A stretch of 64,000 bases of DNA, from NCBI GenBank assembly GCA_026003335.1, contig BPHB01000001.1, positions 1,758,591-1,822,590 of the forward strand, in the 5' to 3' direction. Position numbers and translations under genes: made by a program. Within the stretch, counting starts at the first letter, position 1. Each line of letters opens with the position of its first letter. Below, piece after piece: positions 31,832 through 35,417 of this stretch. This DNA is from Chitinophagales bacterium. Its GTDB lineage: Bacteria; Bacteroidota; Bacteroidia; Chitinophagales; CAIOSU01. The notes under the pieces were generated by a model. It was not told the DNA's origin and did not search any database. It saw only the letters and a list, made by a program, of their open reading frames with translations.

Positions 31832-32386
31832 GTGAAATTTCTCATTGCTGGTCTGGGAAACATTGGTGACGAATATGTAAATACCCGTCACAACATAGGT
31901 TTTCAGATTGTGGACCGTCTGGCCGGTGAAATCCCTGGTTTTACTTCCGGAAGGCTGGCTTATCATTGCAGCGTCAAATACAAAGGGCGTACCCTCTATC
32001 TGATTAAACCCACCACCTACATGAATCTGAGCGGCAAGGCAGTCAAATACTGGCTAGACAATCTAAGAATGCCTCTTGAACACCTTTTGGTAGTTACCGA
32101 TGATATCGCCTTACCCTTTGGCAAGCTGAGAATCAGAAAAAGCGGCAGCGATGGGGGGCACAATGGCCTCAAAAGCATTATAGAAGCCTTAGGCACCAAC
32201 GCCTTCCCCCGCCTGCGTTTTGGCATCGGCAGTAATTTCCCCAAAGGATACCAAACCGAATATGTGTTGGGCACATGGACGCCTGAAGAACAAAAGATGC
32301 TTGCTGAAAAAATTGATTATGCCTGTGAAGCCATCCGAAGTTTTACGACCCTCGGTATTGATCGCACCATGAATCTTTTCAACTAA
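31832..32386 (+). CDS. pth: Peptidyl-tRNA hydrolase
   Basis: A 184-residue Pth that frees tRNA from prematurely released peptidyl-tRNA. It starts with GTG (FLIAGLGNIGDEYVNTRHNIGF follows at once). The catalytic His is in NTRHNIGF (near 21), YLIKPTTYMNLSG and TDDIALPFGKLRIRKSGSDGGHNGLKSI complete the signature. The rplY-pth pairing is common in bacteria. Its stop codon lies inside the outer arm of the attC-like palindrome described below. Confidence 0.96.
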   Translation: MKFLIAGLGNIGDEYVNTRHNIGFQIVDRLAGEIPGFTSGRLAYHCSVKYKGRTLYLIKPTTYMNLSGKAVKYWLDNLRMPLEHLLVVTDDIALPFGKLRIRKSGSDGGHNGLKSIIEALGTNAFPRLRFGIGSNFPKGYQTEYVLGTWTPEEQKMLAEKIDYACEAIRSFTTLGIDRTMNLFN

Positions 32387-32511
32387 CGGTGTGTATAAGC
32401 GTAGTGCGGGTTTCGGATCGGTTCACTATCCACCGACACTAATGATTTTTTAAATGATAAAAGCCTCACTTTTACCTTTTCAGCCCGCATTACGCTTATA
32501 CTTTGTTGTGT
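32381..32511 (-). other. attC-like imperfect palindrome downstream of the restriction-modification genes
   Basis: GTATAAGCGTAGTGCGGG (32393-32410) and CCCGCATTACGCTTATAC (32484-32501) form an 18-bp stem with one G-T/C-A position around a 73-nt variable centre. Read on the minus strand, ACACAAC (32511-32505) precedes the stem and GTTAGTT (32387-32381) follows it. Each matches the integron core consensuses RYYYAAC and GTTRRRY at six of seven positions. The site lies just 3' of the endonuclease stop, where a cassette attC is expected. No integrase is in the window. It could instead be another mobile repeat or a long terminator-like hairpin. Confidence 0.45.
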
Positions 32512-32527
32512 TTTAGTTGCGCCCCTT
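32505..32527 (+). repeat. Left imperfect inverted repeat bounding the restriction-modification unit
   Basis: This 23-nt sequence starts GTTGTGTTT and ends CGCCCCTT. Its reverse complement recurs at 34293-34314, with 20 of 23 positions matching (two substitutions and one gap). It sits 5 bp before the endonuclease stop codon. Confidence 0.65.
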
Positions 32528-32532
32528 TTTTC

Positions 32533-33318
32533 TTATTTTATTTCTGTCACTTCTTCATATAAGACCGGCAGCTTATCTTGCCTCATTCTGAATTTTGTTC
32601 CATGATTATGACCTGTCCGCGCGTCAAAGTCCACTAGAATGTAATTTTTTTCTATAGCTTCTACAAACTTCTCAATGGACAACTTTTTAAGCATCAAAAT
32701 TTTGTTATAATGGTAGTATTCTTCTCCCTCTATTCGCTTCACTTGTGCTTGTACATAAAAACAGTTGTGTAGCTTGGTTCCGGCTTTATGTAACAAGTCA
32801 TCAAAACCCCAATAAGGTTGAGGATCAAGTTCTCCCAGTCCTATTCTTTCTTTAACTGTTTTTAGCCAATTTGCATGTCTCTCCGCTACGGCTGAAGCAT
32901 CAAATGAAATCAATACCTTTTTTTGTTTTCTGTCAACGATTACCATAAATCCTCTATCGCTTCTATTTCGACCGCCTATTGTTTGTCTGAAACTCATTTC
33001 ATTGTCAGGATATTTTGAGCCAGCTTCTTGATGAGTCCAACCATATCTAAGTAGAAAAATTTGAGGTACGAATTTTAATGCTCTTGGAGATGGCTCCATG
33101 TGAAACAATGTAGTGAGGGAAGATGTGTTTTCTCTTTGACATTTTAATTCCCATTCTGCGGCATTTGGAATTGGTAAATTGTTTTCTTCTATGCCAAGCA
33201 AATCTTCAAGCGTATTCCCAATACCACCAGAATTTCCTGGGCGTGCATTTTTAACCCAACCCATTGCTCTTATCTTTTTTAACTCGTTAATGAGTTGTTC
33301 TTTTGTGTATATTTTCAT
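32533..33318 (-). CDS. MvaI/BcnI-family type II restriction endonuclease
   Basis: A 261-residue protein matching the MvaI/BcnI family. The N-terminus (KIYTKEQLINELKKIRAMGW) leads into GGIGNTLEDLLGIEENN (about 31-47) and NAAEWELKCQR (about 52-62), which has the E-x-K end of a PD-(D/E)xK site. HMEPSPRALKFVPQIFLLRYGW and NEMSFRQTIGGRNRSDRGFMV follow. Characterised members cut short CC(W/S)GG sites, MvaI as a monomer; the target here is inferred only. The gene is AT-rich compared with its neighbours. It starts 2 bp after the methyltransferase stop, so the two are co-transcribed. Confidence 0.85.
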   Translation of the reverse strand: MKIYTKEQLINELKKIRAMGWVKNARPGNSGGIGNTLEDLLGIEENNLPIPNAAEWELKCQRENTSSLTTLFHMEPSPRALKFVPQIFLLRYGWTHQEAGSKYPDNEMSFRQTIGGRNRSDRGFMVIVDRKQKKVLISFDASAVAERHANWLKTVKERIGLGELDPQPYWGFDDLLHKAGTKLHNCFYVQAQVKRIEGEEYYHYNKILMLKKLSIEKFVEAIEKNYILVDFDARTGHNHGTKFRMRQDKLPVLYEEVTEIK

Positions 33319-33320
33319 TC

Positions 33321-34274
33321 TTATTTCTTCTTTATCGGGGGCTTCCAGAAATCCAAAAGATACTCAAATGTTGTCCCCATTGTTATATAGTTGCTTGGCC
33401 ATCCAAAAATTCCAATATTGTTAACAATATTTCTTCTGTCCCAAATAATAATATTACGTAATTCATAACCTCTTTTTCTTAATTCTTCTACAAGTGCAAT
33501 GTGTAATGTTATTCTTTGGTTTTCCCACCACATGTCCGATACGTTGATAACACAATGTCCTTTTTCTTTGAGTAATGGCAGTAAATCTTCAAAAATGTCT
33601 CCCATTGCCTCTTCCCACTTGTCAATTTCATAAGTGCCTAAATCTCTTTCATCTTGTGAATATTGCTCAACTTTTAAATATTGGTCATTTTTCCTATCTC
33701 GCCTTGATTTGTTTTTTCTTTTTCTGTTAAGCAAGTTAGCATAAGGGGGTGAAGTCCATATTAAACTTATAGTTTCTTTGTCCAAGTATTCTTTAATATT
33801 TCTTGCATCGTCTTGAATTGCTAACTGCTTAGAATTGTTAAACATATTCTGATTAGTTAGTCGAGAACTGCAGAGCTTGATATAGTTAGGGTTTAGGTCA
33901 AAACCTACTGCATTTCTATTTGTGTCTTGTGCTGCCACAAGAGTTGTCCCACTTCCGACAAATGGGTCAAGCACAATCTCTCCCTCATGAGTGAATAATT
34001 CAATGACTTTCCGTGCTAATGAAATTGGAAATGTTGCAGGATGGAGATTTTTATCTCGGATGTCTCTATTTTCATAAAAGAACTCCCAAACTCCTAATTG
34101 TGATTTTAACCAGTCCTTAGCAGTCATACAGTTGATATGTGTCGGGCCACAATCACACGTCTTTTTGTAATTAAGTCCAAGTTTTTTGTTTTCTTTCTTA
34201 GCATTTTTTGTGTCTTTTTCTACTGTGATTTCTTTCATTTTTTTAATATTATATAATTGTTCAAAGGTCGTCAT
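33321..34274 (-). CDS. DNA (N4-cytosine or N6-adenine) methyltransferase of the restriction-modification unit
   Basis: A 317-residue amino-methyltransferase. The AdoMet motif DPFVGSGTTLVAA (about 103-115) is preceded by HPATFPISLARKVIELF (motif X region). The catalytic motif TSPPYAN lies later at about 174-180. TSPPY is typical of N4-cytosine enzymes, which fits an MvaI/BcnI partner. Many related enzymes have TSPPY before the AdoMet motif, so the order here is permuted. Three Cys occur near the N-terminus (CDCGPTHINC). ATG 34274 is chosen; an upstream ATG at 34325 would overlap the divergent gene. It modifies host DNA to protect it from the paired endonuclease. Confidence 0.87.
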   Translation of the reverse strand: MTTFEQLYNIKKMKEITVEKDTKNAKKENKKLGLNYKKTCDCGPTHINCMTAKDWLKSQLGVWEFFYENRDIRDKNLHPATFPISLARKVIELFTHEGEIVLDPFVGSGTTLVAAQDTNRNAVGFDLNPNYIKLCSSRLTNQNMFNNSKQLAIQDDARNIKEYLDKETISLIWTSPPYANLLNRKRKNKSRRDRKNDQYLKVEQYSQDERDLGTYEIDKWEEAMGDIFEDLLPLLKEKGHCVINVSDMWWENQRITLHIALVEELRKRGYELRNIIIWDRRNIVNNIGIFGWPSNYITMGTTFEYLLDFWKPPIKKK

Positions 34275-34292
34275 TTTATTTGTTTTCTTTTT

Positions 34293-34314
34293 AAGGGGCG
34301 AAATTAAACACAAC
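34293..34314 (-). repeat. Right imperfect inverted repeat bounding the restriction-modification unit
   Basis: This 22-nt sequence starts AAGGGGCG and ends ACACAAC directly against the ATG of the fumarylacetoacetase-family gene at 34315. It is the inverted partner of 32505-32527. On the minus strand its outer end reads GTTGTGT, six of seven positions of the GTTRRRY core consensus. Confidence 0.6.
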
Positions 34315-34926
34315 ATGAAAGTCATTTGTGTCGGAAGAAATTATGCCGAGCATGCCCGGGAACTGAAGAATGCTGTTCCCGATGAACCGGTCATCTTCAT
34401 GAAACCTTCTACTGCCCTCATCCGCAACAACAAAGTGCTTTTTTATCCGCAATTTACCCGGCAGCTTCATTATGAAGGGGAACTGGTACTTAAAATCTGT
34501 AAAAACGGAAAAAGCATTGAGGAGCGGTTTGCCCATCGCTATTTTGATGAAATCACCGTAGGCATTGACTTTACAGCACGCGATATTCAGGCACAGAGCA
34601 AAACAAAGGGGTTGCCCTGGGAAACTGCCAAAGCATTTGATGGCTCCGCAGCAGTAGGCAACTTTGTACCTTTGCATCAGCTACCCGATCTTAATAACAT
34701 TCACTTTTCCTTGCTGCAAAACGGCAAAGAGGTACAAAAAGGCACCTCAGCAGATATGCTTTTTAGCTTTACACAGCTGCTTAGCTACATCTCCCGTTAC
34801 TTTACTTTACTGAAAGGCGACCTTCTTTTTACCGGAACACCTGCCGGAGTGGGCGAAGCGCACATACATGACACGTTTGAAGGCTATCTGGAAGGAACAA
34901 AGGTTTTGACCTGCAAAGTGAAATAG
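34315..34926 (+). CDS. Fumarylacetoacetate hydrolase-family protein
   Basis: A 203-residue FAH-fold protein. It begins KVICVGRNYAEHARELKN, shows the metal-binding Glu pair in LHYEGELVLKI (near 53-55), VGIDFTARDIQ and KAFDGSAAVG, and ends with the conserved LLFTGTPAGVG. Known members include acylpyruvases, oxaloacetate tautomerases and 2-hydroxyhepta-2,4-diene-1,7-dioate isomerases; the short single-domain form is most like acylpyruvase or oxaloacetate-tautomerase-type proteins. ATG 34315 is chosen because conserved sequence begins there. Its upstream DNA coincides with the edge of the restriction-modification unit, so its native promoter may have been displaced. Confidence 0.9.
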   Translation: MKVICVGRNYAEHARELKNAVPDEPVIFMKPSTALIRNNKVLFYPQFTRQLHYEGELVLKICKNGKSIEERFAHRYFDEITVGIDFTARDIQAQSKTKGLPWETAKAFDGSAAVGNFVPLHQLPDLNNIHFSLLQNGKEVQKGTSADMLFSFTQLLSYISRYFTLLKGDLLFTGTPAGVGEAHIHDTFEGYLEGTKVLTCKVK

Positions 34927-34964
34927 CTTCTCCCCTCCCCTTCATTTTTTAGATACTTTAAAAG

Positions 34965-35364
34965 CAAGGTTACAGGCCTGTAAGCCGGGTTCTGTTTTTC
35001 GCACGAAGACGAAACGTCTATCATTTATCTGGTCCTGCTGTCACCAACAGGATCTTTCAGCCAACCCCCCGGGGCTCCGCATTCCTGCGGATTGAGCGAG
35101 CAACCCTGTCCTGAACATTTTCAGGGCCCCGGTATATTTGGCCTTTCGGCTTGCAAGGTTTGCCCCACCGATGAGTTGCCCCATCGGAGCGTGAGCTCTT
35201 ACCTCACGTTTTCACCCTCATCCGCCAATGGCGGACAGTTATTTTCTGTGGCACTTTCTGTTCCTGCCCGAAAGCAGGACCCTCCCGTTAGGAGGTGCAA
35301 TGCTCTGTGCCGCCCGGACTTTCCTCCTGCCTTGTGGCAGGCGATAGACCAGCCTGCAACCCTG
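34965..35364 (-). ncRNA. rnpB: RNase P RNA
   Basis: Read on the minus strand, this 400-nt segment contains the universal 5' block GAGGAAAGTCCGGGC (near 35320-35306) and the 3' block ACAGAACCCGGCTTA (near 34995-34981). A 13-bp P1 helix pairs CAGGGTTGCAGGC (35364-35352) with GCCTGTAACCTTG (34977-34965), including two G-T wobbles, and this sets the ends. It is the catalytic RNA that matures tRNA 5' ends. It lies 53 bp downstream of the Smr gene on the same strand. No terminator was recognised after it. Confidence 0.95.
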
Positions 35365-35417
35365 ATTTTAAAGAACATCTGCCTGATTTAACGCGGATTC
35401 CTCCGTTATGATTCCTT

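Follow-up and report, generated by a model that had tools for sequence, protein, structure and literature searches.

An integron-type restriction-modification cassette between pth and an FAH-family gene of a Chitinophagales genome, probably derived from an integron lineage of the Bacteroidota whose integrase is non-canonical

We analysed a 64-kb stretch of DNA (64,000 nucleotides, hereafter the window) from a Chitinophagales bacterium (contig BPHB01000001.1; the host genome below), in which an endonuclease gene and a methyltransferase gene, together the restriction-modification (RM) pair, lie on the minus strand between pth and a gene of the FAH family. That the RM pair is a cassette inserted away from an array is near certain, and we put at about 85% the probability that it is a genuine integron-type cassette, sitting at a secondary attG-like target and originating in a lineage of Bacteroidota integrons that use a non-canonical integrase. 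In the mechanism that we propose, a tyrosine recombinase would recognise the folded single strand of the cassette attC and cut between G and TT, and the circular cassette would then be joined to a GTT core elsewhere, here the attG-like GTTAGTT at the pth-FAH junction. The source lineage, as represented in the host genome, would comprise a recombinase of ~386 amino acids (aa) that lacks the IntI-specific domain and whose stop codon is closely followed by an attI-like site, together with arrays running in the direction of the recombinase gene. This recombinase would itself do the cutting and presumably works on single strands, and the RM pair would have arrived in trans, from an array or from outside.

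The consensus of the outer boxes of integron attC sites is RYYYAAC (R″) and GTTRRRY (R′). An earlier, sequence-only reading of the window had described an AT-rich, minus-strand endonuclease/methyltransferase pair followed by a 131-nt element with an 18-bp near-perfect stem, whose outer boxes ACACAAC and GTTAGTT each agree with the integron cores at 6 of 7 positions. Our analysis bore this out: the A+T-rich block was coextensive with the pair, which matched PF15515 and PF01555, and the imperfect stem (arms complementary at 17 of 18 positions) and both boxes lay downstream of the gene with the coordinates and sequence given, the R″ box (32505-32511) 21 bp beyond the endonuclease stop at 32533. 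The element folded better than all 200 of its dinucleotide shuffles on both strands (z −4.3 minus, −4.9 plus). The opposite edge of the cassette (34308-34314) indeed read GTTGTGT on the minus strand and was complementary to the R″ of the same cassette at 7/7 positions (GTTGTGT/ACACAAC); on the plus strand R″ reads GTTGTGT, R′ AACTAAC and the opposite edge ACACAAC. The cores at 34308-34314 and 32381-32387 mark the two crossover points, and the minus-strand limits of the cassette are G/TTGTGT (34314/34313) and CACCG/TTAGTT (32387/32386). In the window sequence the pth stop codon overlaps both the R′ box (32381-32387) and the target core of the insertion. An in-silico cut between G and TT at both ends removed 1,927 bp and left the TAA of pth, a single C and the ATG of the FAH gene, restoring both genes, as expected of a precise G/TT insertion.

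Three covariance models were used to locate related sites. R1 was built from 38 copies including the window site (56 sites, reduced to 42 by removal of near-duplicates before the first alignment and to 38 aligned by dropping four with changed 3′ arms); R2 was a broader model of 55 copies with the window site as its first training row; and R3 comprised 45 sites, all taken from genomes other than the host's. The window attC scored 85 bits with R3; its scores with R1 and R2, both trained with it, were 117 and 95 bits. R3 matched nothing else in the window, nor anything in the 32 control loci, of which 30 were FAH loci and two held other recombinases of the host genome. With a single R2 and a single R3 match, the window holds a lone attC without an integrase or array nearby; the integron-integrase profile TIGR02249 had no match in the 64 kb, and the closest array found was ~270 kb away from the cassette on the same contig. 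The proposal of a lone cassette between pth and FAH, with no integrase nearby, is upheld by these results together with the empty-site join and the pairing of its start with its own R″. It also agrees with the junction in relatives, which on the earlier reading should lack the palindrome. When 27 FAH loci of relatives (L016-L042) were checked for pth in a 1.5-kb flank, pth adjoined FAH in 11, with a gap of 5-86 nt in ten and of 536 nt in one, the latter containing, by eye, another reading frame. By R2 and R3 alike, all 30 FAH loci retrieved were free of attCs; they include these 11 as well as the host's own locus (a stretch ending short of the attC) and two paralogues.

The search for further copies, likewise foreseen, yielded a whole family of sites. 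BLAST found a second copy, 73% identical, in the host genome and two more in one genome of another genus (matches in 2/7 genomes of the family, host included), and the exact 22-base attC arm occurred in 58 contigs of GTDB species genomes, whose titles nearly all name Bacteroidota or groups close to them (Ignavibacteria, Balneolales, Caldithrix) and in one case a Tissierellia metagenome-assembled genome (MAG). R1 matched 93 of 198 genomes of the order, and R2, in a scan scoring up to 16 candidates per genome, 137. The host genome itself had 15 R2 matches, and R3 recovered 13 further distinct sites in its array stretches (overlaps not counted). These attCs are arranged in tandem, co-oriented at the end of contig C1 (an array) and on C15, with one at the end of C2; a single array shared by C1, C2 and C15 is a candidate arrangement. 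No base-pair covariation was seen in the first attC alignment (0/15 pairs), a null that counts for neither side because its loci had been picked by the exact arm. The C1-end array (L009) carries a putative MarR-like regulator, a 376-aa protein that to the eye resembles CRISPR-associated CARF-type proteins, and a putative HEPN-like protein. In another locus a group II intron match (L048:6279-6356, the sole Rfam match of this kind among six loci) lies ~0.8 kb from an attC of the same family whose far arm was not found by pattern, perhaps with the intron inside the attC.

Complementarity between the two ends of a cassette proved to be a general property of these arrays. We compared the start core of each of 82 cassettes, the window's included, with the complement of its own R″, using 125 of 154 R2 matches, a subset that also served for the attI and linkage counts below; it left out most L224 rows (the same DNA as L009), L220:2143, a partial L198 hit, reverse-strand readings and weak tail rows. 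Core positions 4-7 were fully paired with the cassette's own R″ in 60/82 cassettes, against 1/76 for the start of the next cassette. By position, pairing amounted to 83-95% at 4-9, 51% at 10, 5% at 11 and 67-78% at 12-15, compared with 5-70% over the same positions for shuffled pairs. As a control we took 33 cassettes of IntI-linked arrays from 20 loci of the same phylum centred on canonical IntI; searching for canonical attCs by a two-box pattern gave no match, and nhmmer seeded with five weak R2 hits in three of these loci was used instead. The control cassettes were paired at 73-94% at positions 4-11 and at 24-42%, close to background, beyond. Long cassette-end pairing is therefore general, since IntI-linked arrays show it too, and the differences between the two sets come down to the mismatch at position 11 and the pairing at 12-15. 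We had at first regarded the extended palindrome as a hallmark of a new lineage; with IntI-linked cassettes paired over 11 positions, that view was toned down. By eye, many cassettes share a AAAACGAC-like stretch after the paired end, shortly before the gene start.

Cassette mobility was assessed by comparing the copies of one cassette of ~1,051 bp, found in ten full copies in ten contigs with a mean identity of 99.2% and a minimum of 96.4%. The contigs are titled as eight named genera (two being Myroides) and one Chitinophagaceae MAG. All ten left edges follow a G, and after CCG the right flank starts with TT in 9/10. The flanks mostly differ, a right one being common to L050 and L090 and a left one to L082 and L101. 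In Algoriphagus boseongensis the cassette is the first after the recombinase, as is an 11th copy, cut by a contig end, in a Bacteroidetes MAG (L080). The same cassette has thus been accepted by attI-like as well as by attC sites. It encodes a nucleotidyltransferase-like protein, presumably resembling lincosamide/aminoglycoside nucleotidyltransferases. A related endonuclease also sits in such a unit elsewhere: among 395 genomes of the phylum, 15 (the host included) matched the endonuclease, and its nearest relative found, 73% identical, is in genome G209, where attC matches flank the cassette that holds it. By eye, that cassette shows equivalent end pairing and encodes a methyltransferase in which the motifs come in a different order. 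The other 13 genomes had no R2 match in the flanks fetched; all 15 flanks were scanned, and of five larger stretches L248 and L252 were rescanned with R2 and L249-L252 with R3.

A canonical IntI in the host genome could be ruled out, TIGR02249 giving no match above cut-off. The best match below the cut-off was the 386-aa recombinase (L010:8238-9392), which has phage-integrase and SAM-like domains and whose best matches among solved structures were XerC-like, XerA and IntI4 chains. The additional domain of IntI is absent from this platform: the spacing from GxKDR to HxxRH is 58-61 residues in the recombinase family (39 of 43 rows, the other four having no readable motif pair), as against 100 in one measured IntI (G023). 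In a tree of 62 sequences, 42 IntI-domain-less proteins and 18 IntI (KYP-motif finds in 17 of the 20 fetched loci, plus G023) formed two separate groups, with supports of 90/81 (to which the tool gave no star) and 100/100 and an outgroup of two Xer-like proteins only; the family row G161, with a broken frame, was excluded.

By genomic position, attC arrays tend to go with this family. The linkage set consisted of the 30 best recombinase matches in the order, chosen by E-value ranking alone and including the host's. A contig end lay within 1.3 kb on the 3′ side of the recombinase in 16/30 and on the 5′ side in 0/30. Fourteen of the 30 had at least 2.5 kb downstream, and 10 of these carried same-strand downstream R2 attCs, compared with none of the 14 elsewhere in the fetched stretch. 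The opposite polarity was seen at IntI loci of the phylum, where all seven with detected arrays (of 20 fetched) were divergent, with the array at the IntI 5′ side. At the level of genomes, at least 10 R2 hits were present in 26/72 with the recombinase vs 16/126 without it (p 2e-4). On the whole, the data strongly suggest that the 386-aa recombinase moves the cassettes.

A GTT follows soon after the recombinase stop codon and in many loci is preceded by a TATAAACAA-like stretch. We scored the pairing of this attI-like GTT with the first downstream attC in 17 loci over 11 positions (4-15 minus 11), skipping loci without a downstream attC. Pairing was at least 9/11 in 10 of the 17, the GTT lying 43-257 nt after the stop, while a mismatched-locus control had a mean of 4.9 and reached at least 8 in 2.9%. 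In the host genome (L010), GTTACAGGCAAGCGT stands 43 nt after the recombinase stop and pairs, with a score of 10, with the nearest downstream attC detected, at a distance of 8.8 kb. Judged by sequence only, this corresponds to an attI that adjoins the integrase gene and to which the first cassette is joined at GTT. The 8.8-kb gap would correspond to an unusually long first cassette, or to lost or undetected sites. This stretch (L010:9392-18310, C2 end), far above the usual cassette size, was seen by eye to hold helicase-like, methyltransferase and TIR-like genes and an IS3-like pair. An attI was visible by eye in L067, L080 and L085; none was visible at the recombinase matches in L050, L061, L072, L074 and L098, which were not used.

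Several observations weigh against this interpretation. Four of the 14 eligible loci (G086, G122, G133 and G036) lack an R2 attC, G036 having a weak R1 match; outside the 30, the arrays of G189 and G026 lie on the other side of the recombinase and G105 has an attC at its 5′ side; and in L198, whose recombinase is among the 30 and not the 14, a partial R2 hit on the opposite strand was excluded from the counts. Array linkage does not hold for all 42 IntI-domain-less members of the tree, 15 of the 72 recombinase-carrying genomes have no R2 hit, and the association of recombinase and attC across genomes is only moderate. R2 was trained partly on the loci tested, the pairing tests using it for site location alone. 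Two of the 17 attI pairings scored 7 and five scored 6 or less, and several of the 17 loci had been fetched for the array known there. Finally, canonical IntI is common in other classes of the phylum, being above cut-off in 98 of 365 genomes phylum-wide, so that an IntI acting in trans may mobilise cassettes as well.

The last point speaks for an account in which a canonical IntI, of another bacterium or of a lost integron, moved the cassette in trans and the IntI-domain-less recombinase has nothing to do with it; the GTT borders and cassette-end complementarity of IntI-linked arrays, the same as here, would also fit it. We nevertheless consider it unlikely. IntI passed the cut-off in only one of 198 genomes of the order, and that genome (L225, G023:C40) had no R1 or R2 match; the only R2 hits in 20 IntI-centred loci were five weak ones (20.0-26.5 bits); and in the host genome the first attC pairs with the attI-like site that follows the recombinase gene. 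The RM pair could also be what is left of an old array at pth-FAH that lost all but one cassette, and arrays do exist elsewhere in the genome. That is very improbable in view of the tight pth-FAH join, 1 bp between the genes, produced by removing one unit, and of the lack of a second attC in the 64-kb window and of any in the 11 relatives with adjacent genes. A strongly folding palindrome between convergent genes (pth and the endonuclease) might, in turn, be an ordinary intergenic repeat or terminator, with the RM pair arriving by another route. This has next to no probability given the precise empty site, the 7/7 pairing with an edge 1.9 kb away, the tandem arrays of related sites whose ends obey the same logic, and the homologous endonuclease in a cassette elsewhere; a plain RM island or terminator palindrome is ruled out by the empty site and the cassette-end pairing.

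The features of the window and the loci of the ~1,051-bp cassette are collected in Table 1. In comparisons with PDB sequences the endonuclease matched R.MvaI (1.1e-16) and R.BcnI (2.1e-10), and relatives of the methyltransferase included both cytosine-N4 and adenine methyltransferases. The methyltransferase is presumed to be the partner of the endonuclease, and the two probably restrict DNA. The open frame of the methyltransferase, from 34325, extends into the FAH gene, and the first in-frame ATG inside the cassette is at 34274. Farther along the window, positions 34960-35400 form a structured, G+C-rich stretch, which we take to resemble RNase P RNA.

Table 1. Coordinates of the cassette, its genes and flanks in the window, and loci of the recurrent cassette
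Feature	Position or locus	Strand	Remarks
Mobile cassette unit, 1,927 bp	32387..34313	-	from TT of the start core to G of the attC R′ box
attC-type site, 131 nt	32381..32511	-	R″ ACACAAC 32505-32511, R′ GTTAGTT 32381-32387
attC stem arms, 18 nt	32484-32501 / 32393-32410	-	94% (17/18) complementary
Cassette 5′ core GTTGTGT, its G being the target's	34308..34314	-	7/7 complementary to R″; inverted repeat
Type II restriction endonuclease, MvaI/BcnI family, 261 aa	32533..33318	-	PF15515 E 7.7e-67
DNA amino-methyltransferase, N4/N6 class, 317 aa	33321..34274	-	PF01555 E 3.1e-32 (longer frame as query)
pth, peptidyl-tRNA hydrolase, left flank	31832..32386	+	TIGR00447 above cut-off
FAH-family hydrolase gene, right flank	34315..34926	+	PF01557 E 2.1e-49 (queried from 34318)
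~1,051-bp cassette copies	L067 (Algoriphagus boseongensis), L050, L061, L071, L074, L081, L082, L090, L095, L101		

On a wider scale, we lean, with only modest confidence, towards the view that integrons of a second kind are present in much of the Bacteroidota, either older than the IntI lineage or its sister, and that in them a tyrosine recombinase without the IntI domain would shuffle attC cassettes by way of a co-directional attI; surveys requiring the IntI domain would miss their integrase, and the window would hold an off-array insertion of one of their defence cassettes. The IntI-specific domain has been described as necessary for integron recombination (PMC9668308, citing Messier and Roy), and one genome survey admitted only integrases with the additional domain (PMC2426708). 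For Bacteroidetes, the accessible text of PMC9024848 reports only array-less integrases in an earlier survey and names a single complete integron, that of Salinibacter ruber. In open-access PMC papers, a collection without preprints and with few subscription journals, we found neither a description of Bacteroidota integrons without the IntI domain nor, as far as the accessible passages go, a figure for Bacteroidetes on clusters of attC sites lacking integrases (CALIN). CALIN and single attC sites lacking an integrase (SALIN, so described in PMC12690207) are defined in PMC9024848, PMC8618304 and PMC12690207. An attI downstream of the integrase gene is not new by itself, because attI downstream of intI has been reported in Archaea (PMC9668308). 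Should the linked recombinase work without the IntI domain, the distribution of integrons and their minimal machinery would need revision and the flow of cassettes in a large environmental phylum would become traceable; the RM cassette standing alone at pth would directly exemplify defence genes that have left an array.

The platform of the host genome shares with canonical integrons the order of gene or genes and then structured attC, the G/TT borders, the R″/R′ complementarity of the circular form, tandem co-oriented arrays and an attI-like first site. Unlike them, it has a recombinase without the IntI-specific domain, arrays that lie at the 3′ end of the recombinase gene and run in the same direction, and a different fine pattern of cassette-end pairing (positions 11 and 12-15). 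In the 'integron-like' subgroup of tyrosine recombinases the insertion is not fully conserved (PMC8138268), which implies that relatives of the host recombinase may already sit in that subgroup; in the accessible text, however, its insertion-less members are not linked to attC arrays or to Bacteroidetes. As in SALIN and attG insertions, a lone cassette occupies a chromosomal GTT-containing site far from an array, but here the genome has no IntI above cut-off. With the MvaI/BcnI type II systems the pair has in common a PF15515 endonuclease matching R.MvaI and R.BcnI, and it differs from them in being carried as an integron-type cassette; RM cassettes are reportedly known in integrons from work on pseudomonad super-integrons.

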